Of a DNA stretch of 39,308 nucleotides, positions 5,196 through 25,182 are shown piece by piece (the stretch's first letter is position 1; each line of letters begins with the position of its first letter). Below the pieces are notes generated by a model that saw only the letters and a list, made by a program, of their open reading frames with translations, had not been told where the DNA came from and made no database searches. Source of the DNA: Oxalobacteraceae bacterium (GTDB lineage Bacteria > Pseudomonadota > Gammaproteobacteria > Burkholderiales > Burkholderiaceae_D); NCBI GenBank assembly GCA_947464955.1, contig CANHZI010000019.1, positions 1 through 39,308 on the forward strand. Direction: 5' to 3'. Both the position numbers and the translations under genes were made by a program.

Positions 5196-5702
5196 ATGAC
5201 ACTGTCGCCAACAACACTTTTTCCATCGGTGGGCATTGGCCTGCTTTCCCGTATTTTGCTTTTATTTAGTTTATTGATCTCTAGCCTGTTGACACCTGCG
5301 TTGGCCCACGCTCAAGCAGAAGAGCAAGAAGTGCGCGCAGCAGTTAACGGTCTATACCGTGCTTTGAGCGATCAAGATGCAACAGCCTTCTCCACTTACT
5401 TGATGCCGCAAGGATTCACGGAATTCAATCCCGACTGGCCTGGTGTCCGTCGCCTCGATATGAAGGTTTTCAAAAGTATCTTCGAGTCCGGTGCAAAAAT
5501 TGACTTAAGTGTCGCTGAGCTTCAAGTGCATTTAATATCAGCCGGAAACGCAGTTACCACTGGCTACCGTGTAGGCACCATCACCCCGCCCGGTGGTGTC
5601 GCCATCAAAAGCCGTTTAGCGCTGACCATGATTTGGGCTAAGCATCTGGTGCAATGGAAACTACAACACGTCCATTTGTCAGAGGAGAAATCTGATCAGT
5701 AG
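5196..5702 (+). CDS. Secreted NTF2-like / SnoaL-like domain protein
   Basis: The ORF track opens at a TTG (5136), but ATG 5196 has AGAGGA 8 bases upstream and begins a long signal peptide (MTLSPTTLF...) ending in PALAHAQA. The mature part of ~128 residues starts with EEQEVRAAVNGLYRALSDQD, the first helix typical of the NTF2-like/DUF4440 cone fold. An aromatic-rich FTEFNPDWPG loop and C-terminal strands (ALTMIWAKHLVQWKLQHVHL) follow. Such proteins bind small ligands in a pocket, and some are enzymes. No catalytic residues are obvious, so the role is open. It has a strong terminator upstream, so it is transcribed on its own or with the RCC1 gene 144 bases downstream. Confidence 0.72.
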   Translation: MTLSPTTLFPSVGIGLLSRILLLFSLLISSLLTPALAHAQAEEQEVRAAVNGLYRALSDQDATAFSTYLMPQGFTEFNPDWPGVRRLDMKVFKSIFESGAKIDLSVAELQVHLISAGNAVTTGYRVGTITPPGGVAIKSRLALTMIWAKHLVQWKLQHVHLSEEKSDQ

Positions 5703-5845
5703 AGGTCCAACATTTCAAGCATGACTGCTCAACGAGGCACACGTCATAATCAGCACAGGAAACCAACACTTAGCGGCAAGCCACATCCTCAACGCATAGA
5801 ATTCATCCTAGAATAGCGACATCAAACTCGCTCTAGAGGCATTTT

Positions 5846-6970
5846 ATGCGCACATCATTCAAGCGAACCAGCGCGTTCGCCGCCCCTTTCATCTTTTTCA
5901 TTGCCCTCGTCTTAATGGCGCCCGCCTCGGCCAGCGAGGTGGTCAAAGTCACTGGCGAAGGGAACAAGGTTTTGCTTCTCGACGACGGTAGTGTGATCAC
6001 TTGGAAAAACGCGAAAGATGGCTTGGTCAAAGTTAAACTGCCAGCAAAAGCTGTCGACATTGCATCAGGCGCTCGCCAATACGCCGTACTCGAGGATGGC
6101 AGTCTATATAGCTGGGATGTGCAGAATAATGAAGCGGCAAGTCAGTTCTTGGCGGTCAAAGACGTCAAGAATATTCAAGTCGCGGGGGCTACGGTCTTAG
6201 TCCTCTTGCGTGATGGACAGGTCATGGCCTGGGGGCCACGCGGCAGTGGCTTGATTGGCGATGGCTTACATCCTAAGCGTTATCTTGAGGATGGTCCTCC
6301 CGCGAAAAATCCTGTCTTGGTGCCGAATGTCAGTCGCGTCATCCAGCTTTCGGTTGGCTATTCTCATGCCTTAGCCTTAACCGAAGATCATCGCGTATTG
6401 GCATGGGGCTCAAACTTCTACGGTGCCTTGGGCCGCGAGCCTCGTCGCGAGCTACCTATAGACTCGGCTGAAGAAATTCCTGGCTTGGGCGATGTCGTCG
6501 CCGTGGTTGCAGGCAATGGCGTTTCTAGCGCGCTCAAGAAAGACGGCACAGTTTGGGTCTGGGGCGCTAACTGGCATGCGCAGTTTGGCAATGGCGATCG
6601 AACCGATCCACCCGGCGTTGGCTATGGCTATGTGCTGACACCGCAACAAGTTAAGGGCATCAATAATGTCACGCATCTGACATTAGGGCTGGCGGGCCGA
6701 CATACGATGGTGTTACTCAAAGATGGCAGTCTGCGCGCTTGGGGCAATACAGATTGGGGACAAATTGGGGCCGGTGTTAGTGGCACATTTCAAGAGAAGC
6801 CAGTCACGCCTAAAATTAACAATATCAAGAGTGTTTTCGCGGTTGGCAACAATACTTTCGCTGTCAAAAAAGATGGTAGTTTCTGGGCTTGGGGCTCAGG
6901 TGATAGAGGAAGCTGGCCATTTACAAAAAACACTAAAATCCCAGAGAAAATCGAGATTCCTTCCAACTAA
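5846..6970 (+). CDS. Secreted RCC1-repeat beta-propeller protein
   Basis: A signal peptide (cut near APASA-SEV) precedes repeated units, each carrying a Trp-Gly or similar pair after a small hydrophobic strand: VITWKN, LYSWDV, VMAWGP, VLAWGS, VWVWGA, LRAWGN and FWAWGS. These are seven copies at ~45-55-residue spacing, and the second half of each often shows the alpha-tubulin-suppressor/RCC1 signature (YGALG, HAQFGNG, WGQIGAG). Seven copies match one complete seven-bladed propeller. The family is a protein-interaction scaffold; in bacteria secreted versions are of unknown function. The first two blades are the least canonical, lacking the G after W. It is convergent with the acyltransferase gene downstream. 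Confidence 0.9.
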   Translation: MRTSFKRTSAFAAPFIFFIALVLMAPASASEVVKVTGEGNKVLLLDDGSVITWKNAKDGLVKVKLPAKAVDIASGARQYAVLEDGSLYSWDVQNNEAASQFLAVKDVKNIQVAGATVLVLLRDGQVMAWGPRGSGLIGDGLHPKRYLEDGPPAKNPVLVPNVSRVIQLSVGYSHALALTEDHRVLAWGSNFYGALGREPRRELPIDSAEEIPGLGDVVAVVAGNGVSSALKKDGTVWVWGANWHAQFGNGDRTDPPGVGYGYVLTPQQVKGINNVTHLTLGLAGRHTMVLLKDGSLRAWGNTDWGQIGAGVSGTFQEKPVTPKINNIKSVFAVGNNTFAVKKDGSFWAWGSGDRGSWPFTKNTKIPEKIEIPSN

Positions 6971-7023
6971 AGCTTGCTCAGCTTGAGGGGCAAGCGCGTG
7001 TTTGTTTACGCCACCGCGTTCGT

Positions 7024-8109
7024 CTACGCACTCACTCGCTTGGCAAGCTTAGCGCCGAGCGCGATGAAAGGCTTCTCTATAAATCGGTGACAGCACCAAC
7101 TGATCGCGAGTACGGCCAAAAATATCAGGAAAAGGAAAGTCGCCTGATATTCGCTATGGAGATTTCCAAGATTGCGCGAAATTGCTAGCGCGGCGACGAT
7201 GATCCCCATATGAACTAAGTAAATCGAGTACGAGACATCACCTAGCTCAACTAAAAATTTGGGCAAGCACCATCCTTTTAATTTTTCTATTCCTATCAAA
7301 CCGTAAATGATAAAAGCACTGCCAAGGCCAAAGCTCAAGGTGCGGGGGCTTGATGTCAAAAGCCCCTGCTGTAAGGTTTGATATGCGCCAATGAAGAATA
7401 AAATGAGTCCAACGAACAATACCAGTACCGGCAAATATAGGGATTCACGCCGGATTAAGAAAAACACCACACATCCAAACAAAAATTCCAATAACATCGG
7501 ATCTAGGATGATGTCGCGAACGTAGCCCGTGGGCAGAAACTCTGTCGCATACCATGCAAAGGGTAGCAAAAACCAAATGAGCAGGCACACGAAGTAGCGA
7601 GCACGAAAGAAAAACAAGATACATGCCATCGAAGCATAAAAATACATTTCGAAAGCTAAACTCCAGGCTTGCGGCACCACGTCGTTGTACTTATTTACCA
7701 GCCAAAAATTCTTCAACAAGGTTTGAAAATTGTTCTCAATAAAATCGATATTGAGTCCTTTTGTGCAGCAAAAAATGACGAGAAAAACAGTCCAATATAA
7801 GGGATAGATTCGAAACAAGCGACGAACCAGAAAACTCAAACTCAACTGTAGATTAGATACCTGTGCAGATTGGACCAGGTGCTTTTGTGCAGCAGTGCAG
7901 ATCACAAGTCCTGAAATAACGAAGAAAATATCGACACCCGCATAAGCGAAGGTATGGATTAATCCCCCACCTAAGTACTCAGGCAAATTAATGGAAGATA
8001 AGGCAAGAGTGTGCCCAACCACGACTAATAAAGCCGCTACGGCACGCATTGCTTGAACGTTCAGGAGGGTTGTTGGATTCGCATCGACTGCAGACGAAGT
8101 GCTATGCAT
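7024..8109 (-). CDS. Acyltransferase-3 family membrane protein (OafA/YrhL-like)
   Basis: This is an integral membrane O-acyltransferase that moves acetyl or other acyl groups onto envelope sugars such as O-antigen or exopolysaccharide. The N-terminus has the family's hallmark LNVQAMRAVAALLVVVGH, with Arg and His spaced as in the proposed active site. About ten hydrophobic helices follow, with DIFFVISGLVI and the late YSIYLVHMGII motif. The ORF extends to 8268, but the extra 53 residues show no membrane or family features; ATG 8109 (MHSTSSAVDANPT) gives a normal N-terminus. It is not next to recognisable polysaccharide genes, so the acceptor cannot be named. Confidence 0.88.
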   Translation of the reverse strand: MHSTSSAVDANPTTLLNVQAMRAVAALLVVVGHTLALSSINLPEYLGGGLIHTFAYAGVDIFFVISGLVICTAAQKHLVQSAQVSNLQLSLSFLVRRLFRIYPLYWTVFLVIFCCTKGLNIDFIENNFQTLLKNFWLVNKYNDVVPQAWSLAFEMYFYASMACILFFFRARYFVCLLIWFLLPFAWYATEFLPTGYVRDIILDPMLLEFLFGCVVFFLIRRESLYLPVLVLFVGLILFFIGAYQTLQQGLLTSSPRTLSFGLGSAFIIYGLIGIEKLKGWCLPKFLVELGDVSYSIYLVHMGIIVAALAISRNLGNLHSEYQATFLFLIFLAVLAISWCCHRFIEKPFIALGAKLAKRVSA

Positions 8110-10144: not shown

Positions 10145-10504
10145 ATTGTTTTCCAATCCGACCATGTCAACAGAAAATAGGCACCGACCTCTGCGCGCTA
10201 CCGCAAGCATCAGACATCGCTTTGCCCAATAAAGTCTCATCTTACCGATAAGAAATAAAAGTGCAATACAGAAACTTTAGGGAACACAACGCAGAAATTT
10301 AGGGTTTGATCACGAGGTACTAAGTACCGATACGTTCGCAAAACGAGTTCGCTTCAAGCTGGTGCACAAAAACCGATAAGCAGCAAGGATTGGTCCATTT
10401 TCCTAGCGCCCATCGAATCAATCCGCCGTCTCCATGCACCTTCTGGGGGCGCAGCAAACAGTCCTCTACTTGGAAACTATTTTTCAACGGTGTTGCAAAA
10501 TTCC

Positions 10505-10549
10505 ATCACATCCTATGCCTTGATTAGCCATCGCCCAACAGGATGTGAT
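10505..10549. repeat. 10-bp perfect inverted repeat with 25-base spacer
   Basis: ATCACATCCT and its exact complement AGGATGTGAT flank 25 bases, about 40 bases upstream of the -35 element of the repressor promoter. There is no T-run, so it is not a typical terminator. It could be a stem in a transcript from upstream or a two-part regulator site. Confidence 0.45.
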
Positions 10550-10588
10550 TGCTGCTGTGCCTTGTTTTAAGTTTGATTTCAAAAATAT

Positions 10589-10617
10589 TTGACAAAAAGA
10601 AAATTCAATTCTACAGT
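10589..10617 (+). promoter_or_regulatory. Putative sigma-70 promoter of the BlaI-type operon
   Basis: TTGACA (perfect -35) is followed after 17 bases by TACAGT (4 of 6 to TATAAT). It lies 51 bases before the repressor ATG and runs into the operator immediately downstream, the geometry expected for an autorepressed operon. Confidence 0.6.
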
Positions 10618-10623
10618 TCAAAT

Positions 10624-10637
10624 TCTACATGTGTAGA
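10624..10637. promoter_or_regulatory. BlaI/CopY-type operator (TACANNTGTA)
   Basis: TCTACATGTGTAGA contains TACA-TG-TGTA, an exact match to the core recognised by BlaI/MecI/CopY-family winged-helix repressors. The flanking TC/GA extends the symmetry to 6-base arms. A half-site CTACA lies 13 bases upstream inside the -10. The site covers the likely transcription start, so repressor binding would block the operon's own promoter. Confidence 0.72.
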
Positions 10638-10667
10638 GAAACACATACTCAATCTTGATCGAATCCT

Positions 10668-11057
10668 ATGGATGAAGAAAACAACGTCACCTTGAGCGAC
10701 TTGCAAATTTCTATCTTGCGTATCCTGTGGGTGAAACCAGAATCGACGACCATGGAAGTGCTCGAAGCCTTGCGTCCGCAACGCATGCTTGCCCACACCA
10801 CCGTATCGACTTTACTCACCCGTCTAGAAAAACGCGGCATCGTGGCGTCTACACGCAACGGTAGGATTCACCACTATCGCGCCCTTATCTCGGAAAACCA
10901 AGTCCAAAAATCGATGGTGACCGATCTACTATCGTCACTCTTTTTTGGCAATGCACAAGCACTCGTCAAACATCTCGTGAGCGAGGACGAGATTAGTGCT
11001 GACGATTTAGCGCAAATACAAAAACTTTTGTCAAAAAAAGGCCGTGATCATGTTTGA
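10668..11057 (+). CDS. BlaI/MecI/CopY-family transcriptional repressor
   Basis: At 129 residues this is a normal length for the family. The N-terminal winged helix (about 8-80) is seen in LSDLQISILRILWVKP, then TMEVLEALRPQRMLAHTTVS and LLTRLEKRGIVAST, which match the family's recognition helix and wing. The C-terminal ~45 residues are the dimerisation helices (SSLFFGNAQALVKHLV). In known systems the repressor is released when a partner M56 membrane peptidase is activated and the repressor is cleaved. That partner gene overlaps the 3' end here. A matching operator lies 31 bases before the start, so autoregulation is likely. No beta-lactamase or copper gene is in view, so the symbols blaI, mecI and copY are not used. 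Confidence 0.92.
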   Translation: MDEENNVTLSDLQISILRILWVKPESTTMEVLEALRPQRMLAHTTVSTLLTRLEKRGIVASTRNGRIHHYRALISENQVQKSMVTDLLSSLFFGNAQALVKHLVSEDEISADDLAQIQKLLSKKGRDHV

Positions 11058-13158
11058 TCTCTTTTGCTTTAAGTTGTTAGAGTTTTTTTGTACCTATTTT
11101 CTACATAGCTCAGCGTTGCTTGTATGCGCTTATTTGCTTAAGCGAAGTGGCGCCCTTAAAAATAGAGCCGTTGCTGAAACGATTTGGCGCTTTGCGTTTT
11201 GGGGTGGATTCGTATCGGCCACCGCCCTTAGCTTGCTCTCAAACGAAAAGCCAAGTCCATCACTCAAGTCCACGATGGAAACCGGCTCTCCTACAAAAAC
11301 GCTAGAGAGAACGCCTCCGACAAATACTCTTACTTCTTTGCCTCAAAGCGAGTCTAAGCAAGAGCTTGCGGTGCGCAAAAAGTCTGAAGATGAGATTCCA
11401 CCTTCGCCAGTTGAACTTGCCTCGAGTATCAATGCAAGCCATTTGCAAGCCGCAAAAACGATCAGCCTCTCAGCAGAGATTAAGCCTTATCTGGGTTACC
11501 TCGCATATGGGTGGCTAGTATTTTTGGTACTAAGCTTGACACAGTTCGCTTTACGTATTGTGCGCCTTAACCAGCAAGTGCATCGGTATCCCCTGTGTCA
11601 GCTGGACTTTCTCAGCCAGCTGGTTGAACGCAAGTTCCCTCAGTTTAAAGATCGATTAACAATTCGATGTTCTGAAACCTGGAGCAGCCCTATCGTGACC
11701 CCCAATAAGGTTATTTGTTTACCAGACTGGACTCTACGAGAACTCGCACCGAAACAACTCGAGATGATGGTCGCGCATGAAGTAGCACACATTCAACGCG
11801 ATGATCCCGTTCTCTCAATTGCATACCGTTTTTTGACGACTGCCTTCTTTTTTCAGCCGATGAACATAATCGCAGAGCGTGAACTCAATAGCTTGGCCGA
11901 ACTCGCCTGCGACGCCTTGGCCAGCGAAAGTTCAATCGAGAAACATCATCTCGCCGAAGCACTGTTTGCCTGCGCCAAAGCAAAGAAACGCAGTAACGAA
12001 ATACCCAAACTTGCGCTCGCCATGGCCAAAGCAAACTCGCCACTTGTAACGAGAGTACGTGTATTGATTGACGAAATGCCGACAATCCCGATGCAACATG
12101 CGAAGTTGATCTACTTTTCTAGCGCCACCGTGATCCTCATGCTGATACTCAGCGTTCCAAGTGTGCGGTTTACATTTACAGAACTGAGAAATCTACCAGC
12201 AATTGCCAGCGTGAACAAAATCACACCTTTGATTGATGCTATAGGCCAGCAGTTAACGGCCGTGAAAGAATTGAATTCAAGTCAGCCAGAAGCAATACCA
12301 GAGAAGCAAGCGACGGACTTAGCATCACTCAATAACACCAGTGAAGCGGTTGTGGCAGCGCCTGCAAACGCCGTCCAATCGGCGCCGATCAATGAACCCG
12401 GCATGCCGACAACTTCAAGCGAGCTACAAGGCACACAAGCAAGCCCGCAATGGACCATCGAGGACGCGAAACAGGCGCTCAACTCCAAGCGTTTGTCGGA
12501 CGCGTATGAGATCTTGCTCACGCTCGCCAAAGCTGACGATACCAAAGCGCAGAGCTTGTTGGGAACGATGTATTGGAATGGCGAGGGGCGTCCGATCGAT
12601 CTCGAAGAGGCTGAAAAATGGTTCCGGCTCGCAGCAAACAAAGGCGATCAAGCAGCGCTTCAATCCGTTCGCCTGATCGACGAAAGAAGACAAAAAAAAC
12701 GCTCAATAGAATTTTATACGGGCGAGTCAAAGAGTGCCGACTATCGATATCTTGAAGACAAATGCCCTGCGCCTACTTATAGCAACTCGCTCTTTGCATC
12801 AAATGCAAAAGCACTTGAGTCTTGGAACAAATGCGCGAAAAAACACTTGAATGCCTTAAGAGCAGCCAAAGCACAAGATCAAATCATTATTCCATCAGCC
12901 TTAATCCCGCTACTAACAGACCGCGAACTTAAAATGGCCGAGGACAATTCTTCTTTGGTGATTGAACACGCTATCGAGAGTATTGCAGTCAGCGAAGCAG
13001 AAATGCGTCGCGGTCTGCAAACATGGAACGATGCCCATCCCAACTTGATTACGAATTCAGCCTATATACCAGCGGCAAAATTACCGGAATCCACAGACAG
13101 AACACCTGAATATCGGGTTGCCGTACCACCTATGCAGTTGAAACAATCCTCACCCTAG
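11050..13158 (+). CDS. BlaR1-like M56 membrane metallopeptidase with C-terminal Sel1 module
   Basis: The N-terminal half resembles BlaR1/MecR1: hydrophobic helices at about 5-27, 38-60, 145-170 and 350-370, with the zinc site HEVAH at 243-247 and a downstream ELACD (285-288) that supplies the third ligand region, preceded by TPNKVICLPDWTLREL. In BlaR1 the cytoplasmic protease loop leads to cleavage of BlaI. The usual penicillin-binding sensor domain is absent. Instead the periplasmic C-terminus has a Gln/Ala/Pro-rich linker, a Sel1/TPR-like repeat (AQSLLGTMYWNGEG...EEAEKWFRLAANKGD) and a ~150-residue unnamed domain (IEFYTGES, YRYLEDKC, KAQDQIIIP). That module is repeated as a separate secreted protein in the next gene. 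The ATG at 11050 overlaps the repressor stop by 8 bases and has AAAGG 8 bases upstream; the track's GTG 11044 is too close to that site. The inducing signal is unknown. Confidence 0.88.
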   Translation: MFDLFCFKLLEFFCTYFLHSSALLVCAYLLKRSGALKNRAVAETIWRFAFWGGFVSATALSLLSNEKPSPSLKSTMETGSPTKTLERTPPTNTLTSLPQSESKQELAVRKKSEDEIPPSPVELASSINASHLQAAKTISLSAEIKPYLGYLAYGWLVFLVLSLTQFALRIVRLNQQVHRYPLCQLDFLSQLVERKFPQFKDRLTIRCSETWSSPIVTPNKVICLPDWTLRELAPKQLEMMVAHEVAHIQRDDPVLSIAYRFLTTAFFFQPMNIIAERELNSLAELACDALASESSIEKHHLAEALFACAKAKKRSNEIPKLALAMAKANSPLVTRVRVLIDEMPTIPMQHAKLIYFSSATVILMLILSVPSVRFTFTELRNLPAIASVNKITPLIDAIGQQLTAVKELNSSQPEAIPEKQATDLASLNNTSEAVVAAPANAVQSAPINEPGMPTTSSELQGTQASPQWTIEDAKQALNSKRLSDAYEILLTLAKADDTKAQSLLGTMYWNGEGRPIDLEEAEKWFRLAANKGDQAALQSVRLIDERRQKKRSIEFYTGESKSADYRYLEDKCPAPTYSNSLFASNAKALESWNKCAKKHLNALRAAKAQDQIIIPSALIPLLTDRELKMAEDNSSLVIEHAIESIAVSEAEMRRGLQTWNDAHPNLITNSAYIPAAKLPESTDRTPEYRVAVPPMQLKQSSP

Positions 13159-13219
13159 TAAGTCATAAACAAAACACTAAAACTGACATCTTTATCCTTG
13201 AATAACCATGGAGACATCA

Positions 13220-14026
13220 ATGAAAAATACTTCAATCAATACCAATAAGACGCAAAGCACGATGATCAAACTCGGTATCGCCGCAATGATCACTCTATCA
13301 GCACAATATGGCGCGGGAGCACTACCTATCAGCATTGGCGCAAGCTATGCGCAGCAAGCAGGGGTGAAGGAAGCCATAGAACTCATCAAGAATAAATCTT
13401 TCGCTCGCGCCCACGAAATTCTTTTGAGCCACGCCAAACAAGGTAACGCAGAGGCTCAAGGACTTCTTGGCGAAATGTATTGGTTTGGTGACGGTGTCGC
13501 TGTCGATGCCAAAGAGGCGGAGAAATGGTTTAAGCTCGGCGCAGAAAAAGCGGATCCAAAATCACAAGGTTTTATCAACCTCATTGCGCAACGTGAAGCG
13601 CGAAAAGGGGAAATTTCTTTCTATACGAATGAGTCCGTTGATCCCAAATTTCGCTACCTAGATAGTAAATGTATTACACCGGATTACGGTATTAATTCAT
13701 ACGCCTACAATCAGAAGTTAAACACGATCTGGCGCAAGTGTTATCGTGAATTTCAAGGAGCAATTAAGCAAGCGAAAGAACAGGATCAAGTTGTCGTTCC
13801 AGAAGACTTGCTTCAAATTCTGACAGAAGATGAGATCAAAAAAGTAGAAGCGAACAATTCAAAAATTGCCGATCTCATTCTCGAGAATATGGAGAAGAGT
13901 AAATCTGAGATCGACAAAGCTTTTGTCGCGTGGGCTGAAACTCGCCGTAATGAGCTGCGTAATTCCATGGCAGAAAAAGCGGAAATTCCTATGCGTACGG
14001 TTGAATTACCAAAAACTGTGCGGTAA
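13220..14026 (+). CDS. Secreted Sel1-repeat protein, paralogue of the M56 sensor module
   Basis: Signal peptide (cut near GASYA-QQA), then one Sel1-like repeat pair (AHEILLSHAKQGNAEAQGLL, GEMYWFGDGVAVDAKEAEKWF) and a domain of ~150 residues. It aligns along its whole mature length with the C-terminus of the upstream M56 protein: WFKLGAEKAD with WFRLAANKGD, ISFYTNES with IEFYTGES, FRYLDSKC with YRYLEDKC, AKEQDQVVVP with AKAQDQIIIP. Two Cys and the LTEDEIKKVEANNS helix are also shared. A free periplasmic copy of a sensor's own domain suggests a ligand carrier, competitor or partner for the membrane protein. The start is ATG 13220, with GGAG 6 bases upstream; the track's ATG 13208 contains that site. 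It lies 61 bases after the M56 gene, same strand, so probably one operon. Confidence 0.85.
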   Translation: MKNTSINTNKTQSTMIKLGIAAMITLSAQYGAGALPISIGASYAQQAGVKEAIELIKNKSFARAHEILLSHAKQGNAEAQGLLGEMYWFGDGVAVDAKEAEKWFKLGAEKADPKSQGFINLIAQREARKGEISFYTNESVDPKFRYLDSKCITPDYGINSYAYNQKLNTIWRKCYREFQGAIKQAKEQDQVVVPEDLLQILTEDEIKKVEANNSKIADLILENMEKSKSEIDKAFVAWAETRRNELRNSMAEKAEIPMRTVELPKTVR

Positions 14027-14033
14027 TTTGATG

Positions 14034-14070
14034 GTGCGAGCTGGATAGAGCGAAAACTTCCAGCTCGCAC
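14034..14070. terminator. Perfect 12-bp hairpin between convergent genes
   Basis: GTGCGAGCTGGA and its exact complement TCCAGCTCGCAC enclose 13 bases, 7 bases after the Sel1 gene stop and 9 bases before the end of the TonB receptor gene. There is no T-run on either side, so it is either a non-canonical bidirectional terminator or a 3'-end stabiliser. Confidence 0.55.
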
Positions 14071-14079
14071 TTCGATCAA

Positions 14080-24468: not shown

Positions 24469-25182
24469 TTACGCTGGACGAGTACCAGTTGGGAACGGCC
24501 AAGCTGCTGTTGGGCTGACCACCGTCTTTGCATCTGGTGTCGCTGGCTTAGCTGCTGCTACTGGTGCAGCTGGTTTAGCTGCTGCTTTTTTTGCTGCTGG
24601 TTTTTTCGCTGCTGGTTTAGCTGCGGCCTTTTTTGCGGCTGGCTTAGCCGCCGCTTTTTTTGCTGCTGGCTTCGCTGCTGGTTTAGCTGCTGCTTTTTTC
24701 GCTGCTGGCTTTGCCGCTGGCTTAGCTGCTGCTTTTTTCGCTGCTGGCTTAGCTGCTGCCTTTTTCGCTGCTGGCTTAGCTGCTGGCTTAGCTGCTGCTT
24801 TTTTTGCTGCTGGCTTAGCTGCTGCTTTTTTCGCTACTGGCTTAGCTGCTGCTTTCTTAGCTGCTGGTTTTGCTGCTGGCTTAGCTGCTGCTTTTTTTGC
24901 CGCTGGCTTAGCTGCTGCTTTTTTAGCTGCTGGTTTTGCTGCTGGCTTAGCTGCTGCTTTTTTCGCTACTGGCTTAGCTGCTGGTTTAGCTGCTGCTTTT
25001 TTAGCTGCTGGCTTAGCTGCTGGTTTAGCTGCTGCTTTCTTAGCTGCTGGTTTTGCTGCAGGTTTAGCTGCTGCTTTCTTCGCTGCTGGTTTTGCTGCAG
25101 GTTTAGCTGCTGCTTTCTTGGCCGCTGGTTTCGCTGCCGGCTTTGCCGCAGCTACTTTCTTGGCTTCTGGTGCTGTTGCCAT
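24469..25182 (-). CDS. Histone H1-like Lys/Ala/Pro-rich DNA-binding protein
   Basis: 237 residues made almost only of Lys, Ala and Pro. After MATAPEAKK, units of 13 residues (KKAAAKPAAKPAA) and 9 residues (KKAAAKPAA) alternate to about residue 205, resembling the C-terminal tail of eukaryotic histone H1 and the AlgP/HctB-type bacterial proteins. It would bind DNA nonspecifically and may compact the nucleoid. A unique, non-repetitive tail follows, with TPDAKTVVSPTAAWPFPTG before the last residues. GGAG lies 7 bases before ATG 25182. Tandem DNA repeats make the length likely to vary between strains. A second gene with the same N-terminus (MATAPKKAA) starts at the right edge of the window. Confidence 0.9.
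   Translation of the reverse strand: MATAPEAKKVAAAKPAAKPAAKKAAAKPAAKPAAKKAAAKPAAKPAAKKAAAKPAAKPAAKKAAAKPAAKPVAKKAAAKPAAKPAAKKAAAKPAAKKAAAKPAAKPAAKKAAAKPVAKKAAAKPAAKKAAAKPAAKPAAKKAAAKPAAKKAAAKPAAKPAAKKAAAKPAAKPAAKKAAAKPAAKKAAAKPAAKKPAAKKAAAKPAAPVAAAKPATPDAKTVVSPTAAWPFPTGTRPA
24559..25165. repeat. In-frame tandem repeats inside the histone-like gene
   Basis: The coding DNA repeats imperfect units of 27 and 39 bases (for example GCTGCTGGCTTAGCTGCTGC on the plus strand) about 20 times. Silent changes (gct/gcc, tta/ttt) vary between units. The units are multiples of three, so expansion or contraction keeps the frame. Only the repeat span is approximate. Confidence 0.8.

Follow-up and report, generated by a model that had tools for sequence, protein, structure and literature searches.

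Introduction

Signalling of the BlaR1 type is known almost exclusively in the context of antibiotic resistance, although genes for M56 metallopeptidases are widespread. In the BlaI-BlaR1 and MecI-MecR1 systems of Staphylococcus and Bacillus, a repressor of the BlaI fold is encoded next to an M56 protease that lies between membrane helices and carries the HExxH...E residues, and dyad operators are located on the promoter (the facts on BlaR1 used in this study are taken from PMC9834060). An M56 receptor without a classical penicillin sensor has been described in the BlaI-BlaR system of Mycobacterium tuberculosis (PMC9834060), whose BlaI also controls genes besides the beta-lactamase gene (PMC12565901). 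In Rhizobiales, the periplasmic Sel1 protein ExoR binds the sensor kinase ChvG and holds it in check (PMC3460628). Here we describe a three-gene operon in a stretch of 39,308 nucleotides from an Oxalobacteraceae bacterium (contig CANHZI010000019.1, assembly GCA_947464955.1), the whole of which is called the window. The operon encodes a BlaI-type repressor, an M56 membrane peptidase with a C-terminal Sel1 module and a free paralogue of that module. We consider it likely that it forms a BlaI/BlaR1-type switch of repressor and antirepressor in which a periplasmic module of Sel1 and a cysteine-pair domain has taken the place of the penicillin sensor, and that it responds to an envelope signal other than beta-lactams. 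It probably controls its own expression, the free copy of the sensor and, at least in the case of a sister operon on contig C7, a small lipoprotein gene.

Results

All three genes of the operon, blaI, the M56 gene and the third gene, are intact (Table 1). An earlier sequence-only reading of this DNA, made without database searches, had proposed that the first two overlap and resemble a blaI-blaR1 pair, that they share one promoter with an operator, and that a Sel1 module with an unnamed C-terminal domain replaces the penicillin sensor, and our analysis bears this out. The repressor matches Pfam Penicillinase_R over residues 9-122 with 99.1 bits against a cut-off of 22.6, and it aligns over its full length with the solved MecI structure 1sd6 (over 8-124). 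The M56 protein matches Pfam Peptidase_M56 with an E value of 3e-19, and the profile of its family matches BlaR1 (8exs) with an E value of 3e-11, the alignment bringing HExxH and the subsequent E...D onto their BlaR1 counterparts. Its catalytic residues H245, E246, H249 and E286 (numbered from GTG 11044) stand in invariant columns among the aligned relatives. The top matches of its AlphaFold model in the PDB are the BlaR1 entries 8exp, 8exq, 8exs and 8ext, and the model helices at residues 2-34, 41-66, 147-181 and 354-368 would fit the BlaR1 layout of a protease among membrane helices with its C-terminal part outside; hydropathy gives three clear segments, with the second weak in the window protein. 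The end of blaI at 11057 overlaps the start of the M56 gene, for which ATG 11050 is more likely than GTG 11044.

Table 1. Positions of the operon features in the window
Feature	Positions	Strand	Basis
Promoter TTGACA-17-TACAGT	10589..10617	+	consensus scan 10/12; same layout in 12/12 operons
Tandem BlaI-type operator CTACAGTTCAAATTCTACATGTGTAG, overlapping the -10 hexamer	10611..10636	+	exact motif counts (see text)
BlaI/MecI-family repressor, 129 residues, no cysteine	10668..11057	+	Penicillinase_R 2.5e-28; MecI 1sd6 9e-15
M56 membrane metallopeptidase with C-terminal Sel1 and CTD	11050..13158	+	702 residues from ATG 11050; 704 from GTG 11044
M56 protease region, HEVAH...E	11449..12066	+	Pfam, residues 136-341; invariant columns; BlaR1 alignment
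Linker after last membrane helix, low-confidence, presumably flexible	12148..12444	+	AlphaFold predicted local distance difference test (pLDDT) below 50 at residues 369-447 and 449-467
Sel1 repeat above Pfam cut-off	12544..12648	+	residues 501-535; structure matches to Sel1 proteins
Unnamed C-terminal domain (CTD) with invariant cysteine pair C574/C597	12697..13110	+	no Pfam match; alignment with invariant C, C, E
Predicted secreted paralogue of the Sel1 and CTD module (third gene)	13220..14026	+	start in list of open reading frames (ORFs) 13208; ATG 13220 after GGAG
CTD of third gene, cysteine pair C155/C178 (numbered from 13208)	13604..14017	+	alignment
Probable terminator, strong hairpin between operon and convergent TonB-receptor gene	14032..14070	.	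-28.3 kcal/mol, z -5.8

In the place of the penicillin sensor, the M56 protein carries a single Sel1 repeat that passes the Pfam cut-off (31.7 bits against 30.7), followed by about 140 residues (~552-689) without any Pfam match, here called the CTD. A Pfam search found neither a penicillin-binding (SxxK) nor a beta-lactamase domain in this protein, and no beta-lactamase was found among the window genes tested, as the sequence-only reading had stated. The M56 protein is thus a relative of BlaR1, yet it has no penicillin sensor, reaches only 27.8 bits with NCBIfam blaR1 against a cut-off of 400 and has no beta-lactamase target. An exchangeable C-terminal part is a general feature, because other M56 proteins of the same genome end in HEAT or TonB_C; six M56 genes of this genome lie above the family cut-off, and their C-termini are coiled, HEAT, TonB_C or Sel1 with the CTD. 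At further BlaI-M56 loci of the genome (L015:4120-5562 and 5631-7538; L014:5535-7148; L013:5103-6962), two M56 genes in tandem have TonB_C C-termini, another has HEAT repeats, and a fourth ends in a long and charged stretch that is probably coiled. When genome contigs were searched with the full M56 alignment as a profile, all matches were generic M56 proteins from other phyla, and none was a relative of the fusion.

As in members of the BlaI/MecI family, a TACA..TGTA-type dyad operator is present on the repressor's own promoter. The element TACATGTGTA (10626-10635) lies inside a tandem operator, of which it forms the inner portion and which has the structure CTACA-N9-CTACA-N3-GTAG, and one promoter with such an operator is common to all 12 intact blaI-M56-CTD operons read, with the layout TTGAC[AT], 17-18 bases and TACA, and with two operator half-units 14 bases apart. 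In our surveys, which covered sampled genomes with one per species, the exact tandem motif was found at 3 sites in the 4.66-Mb genome of the bacterium itself (the window blaI, the blaI of the sister operon on contig C7, and C29:32399) and at 14 sites in 44 genomes of the genus, exclusively in genomes with the system. This is far above chance, because the motif read backwards, used as a control, gave 0 sites in the 44 genomes. Specificity is confined to the tandem form: for CTACANNTGTAG by itself there was no enrichment (4 sites against 5 for the control), and a loose search for single dyads was uninformative, its control counts being equally high. A perfect single dyad, TACTACAAGTGTAGTA, lies at L141:3442-3454 (G000:C72:5942) upstream of a 413-residue protein of Pfam Metallopep, and may be chance or the target of another BlaI. 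The best NCBIfam match of the repressor is CopY_TcrY and the operator core TACANNTGTA resembles the cop box, which could suggest a CopY-like metal-responsive repressor adjoining an M56 gene by chance. We consider this very unlikely, as the match stays at 80.7 bits, below the cut-off of 121.95, the repressor has no cysteine and so no C-terminal CopY/TcrY-type cysteine metal site, and its pairing with M56 is constant.

When the tandem motif was combined with a -35 box, 17 sites were found in the 44 genomes: 12 of them are promoters of blaI, 4 belong to the promoter of one small lipoprotein gene and 1 is a chance hit. The lipoprotein is 77-78 residues long, with the lipobox LSAC in the own-genome copy, and has no Pfam match; copies of this conserved gene with the tandem operator lie at L140:4005-4241 (minus strand), L163:4669-4902 (plus) and within L164:4344-4700 (minus). 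The four upstream regions share the 26-base operator at 93% identity, whereas identity in most of the flanks is only 24-26%, the level of unrelated sequence. This conservation of the operator against diverged flanks is the strongest evidence that the lipoprotein gene is a predicted target of the BlaI set. The gene is found in 7 of the 44 genomes. Of these, G001 has a broken remnant of the system and the others have the system itself; in G003, G012 and G001 the gene is without the operator. The remnant in G001 (L176:2061-3150) is an M56-Sel1-CTD gene in two overlapping ORFs with an internal piece missing. Because the operator-bearing lipoprotein genes accompany a C7-type operon (G000, G006, G013 and G031), the C7 BlaI is the likelier predicted controller of the lipoprotein in the bacterium's own genome. 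Cross-control by the window BlaI is possible as well, because the DNA-reading stretches of the two repressors are nearly identical (HTTVSTLLTRLEKRG in the window, HTTIATLLTRLEKRG on C7). Beside the operator sites found genus-wide there is no beta-lactamase. This bears on the idea of a beta-lactam sensor of unusual build, which the homology to BlaR1 and BlaI might suggest. It appears extremely unlikely, since a penicillin-binding domain and a beta-lactamase at the operator sites are both missing, and the operator of the lipoprotein gene does have a serine hydrolase (Pfam family Beta-lactamase) two genes upstream, but not downstream.

The third gene encodes a protein that shares 36% identity over 227 residues with the Sel1 and CTD part of the M56 protein (E 2e-47). 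Its N-terminal hydrophobic stretch reads as a signal peptide by eye, with a hydropathy scan below threshold. The Sel1 Pfam score of 27.9 bits is just below the cut-off, and the structure model matches Sel1 structures; the Sel1 part is modelled at a pLDDT of ~97 and the CTD, a long helical hairpin, at fair quality. Foldseek of this model against the PDB returned Sel1 proteins only and nothing for the CTD. In a tree of 50 CTDs, the third-gene CTD and that of the window M56 protein are sisters with support of 99/99, both on long branches, and the free sensor copy therefore most likely arose by duplication inside the operon. Third genes with a CTD are found in 5 of the 12 operons (the window, L012, L041, L049 and L105). 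In the third-gene place of two operons lies a different lipoprotein-like gene of 139-149 residues (L059:4802-5221, L055:5091-5540).

The aligned CTDs share an invariant cysteine pair and an invariant glutamate, and the pair could make the Sel1 and CTD module redox-sensitive. The CTD profile matches 127 of 394 genomes of the bacterial family, in 6 of 44 genera; outside the family it gave no match in 300 genomes drawn from the order, and nothing significant among PDB sequences. Outside the genus the CTD ORFs are mostly of 170-340 residues, and the longer ones that were read (L103, L104) have no M56 match. Among the sampled genomes, CTD-M56 fusions were seen only in one clade of the genus, where blaI stands directly upstream in all 12 operons read (the window, L012, L041, L044, L047-L051, L055, L059 and L105), adjacent and mostly overlapping or nearly so. 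Stand-alone CTD genes within the genus often lie behind pntAB (gene names read from sequence), and those outside it have dedD/cvpA/purF/metZ-like neighbours; these are housekeeping genes and give no functional clue. Some other genera of the family have stand-alone CTD genes in tandem or in several copies (L098, L093, L096, L107 and others). Such wide stand-alone occurrence with no link to BlaI, and the usual protein-binding role of Sel1 repeats, would suit a docking part rather than a sensor, with the signal entering through the loop between membrane helices 2 and 3 or through another partner. The module, however, occupies the place of the BlaR1 sensor, and the operon contains a duplicate of it; we regard a mere docking role as quite improbable.

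In a ribonucleotide reductase protein tree a single clade of 11 genomes contains the carriers of the system, with a few losses, and the three non-carriers inside this clade are also without the lipoprotein. The window operon is absent from the matching locus of the two relatives compared, G013 and G006 (window 10146-14079 against L224/L225 and L227): the flanking chemoreceptor and TonB-receptor genes are ~0.5 kb apart in G013 and ~0.4 kb in G006, and in the window the 3.9-kb operon lies between them. Its base composition is native, with a guanine-cytosine fraction of 0.464 against 0.472 and thus no foreign signature. This indicates, as far as the genomes compared can tell, that the window operon was either acquired by this lineage alone or survived in it alone as an old paralogue. 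Elsewhere in the window, 24469-25182 (minus strand) encodes a 237-residue AAKPAAKK-repeat protein with a weak match to the histone H1-like HC2, below the cut-off.

Discussion

The different sensor domain, the free sensor copy in the operon and the lipoprotein gene predicted to be controlled in related copies suggest that the switch probably detects something other than penicillin. From the layout we infer that, without a signal, BlaI dimers on the tandem operator across the -10 box would keep expression of the operon low. Judging from its position and from BlaR1, the Sel1 and CTD module may perceive a non-beta-lactam envelope signal either directly or via a partner protein. Perception would activate the zinc protease on the cytoplasmic side and lead to inactivation of BlaI, by which the operon would be induced, including the predicted secreted Sel1 and CTD paralogue. 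This free paralogue could bind the receptor or compete for its ligand and thereby adjust the response, a role for which ExoR and its action on ChvG offer a precedent (PMC3460628), and at least one paralogous BlaI of the set would also control the small lipoprotein gene elsewhere in the genome.

Several findings weigh against such a switch in the window. The operator at the lipoprotein gene is associated with the sister C7-type operon and not specifically with the window operon, and, as the carriers form one clade, the co-occurrence of system and lipoprotein partly reflects shared descent. Seven of the 12 operons are without a CTD third gene, and the full-length M56 model has a mean pLDDT of 63.5 and is low in places. 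Finally, the N-F bond that is cut in staphylococcal BlaI and MecI is replaced by H-L in 12 of 12 relatives, so that cleavage at this bond cannot be assumed. The last point would also fit a system in which M56 does not cleave BlaI and does separate envelope work, BlaI being released by a ligand in the cytoplasm, for example a dipeptide derived from peptidoglycan; the gamma-D-Glu-m-A2pm dipeptide has been reported to inactivate BlaI in Bacillus (PMC3305447). Against this stand the adjacency of blaI and M56 in 12 of 12 operons and the invariant catalytic residues, and we think such a separation of the two proteins unlikely. It is possible, though rather doubtful, that the Sel1 and cysteine-pair module represents a periplasmic sensor of a new class that serves M56 antirepressors, with the free paralogue as receptor partner or competitor. 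A protease-coupled receptor would then be tuned by its own sensor domain in soluble form, and the lipoprotein would be its dedicated output.

The sequence-only reading stands in its repressor-receptor pair, promoter and exchange of the sensor, but it missed the free paralogue, the mostly stand-alone occurrence of the CTD across the family and the distant lipoprotein operator. The window system would be a non-beta-lactam version of BlaR1-type signalling. Its predicted operators form a compact set, one gene can be named as its candidate output and the sensor domain also exists in free form, so that a single organism suffices to test what else M56 receptors sense. The study also defines an unnamed CTD that is present in about one third of the sampled family genomes.

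We found no description of an M56-Sel1 fusion or system, with or without a known inducer, in the open-access literature, and several known systems share parts of this one. The three further M56 proteins of the same genome with TonB_C or HEAT C-termini are likewise adjoined by a BlaI-like gene, but their C-terminal domains differ. In the ExoR-ExoS(ChvG)-ChvI system a secreted Sel1-repeat protein also acts on a membrane-bound sensor (PMC3460628), although that receptor is a histidine kinase and, at 12.9 bits against an NCBIfam cut-off of 450, ExoR does not count as a homologue. M. tuberculosis BlaR has no equivalent sensor domain, whereas the window protein has Sel1 with the CTD. Compared with BlaI-BlaR1 and MecI-MecR1, the window system has the Sel1 and cysteine-pair module instead of a penicillin-binding sensor and is without a beta-lactamase or PBP2a target and without the N-F cleavage bond, while its operon has a free paralogue of the sensor and its BlaI set has the lipoprotein gene as a predicted second target.

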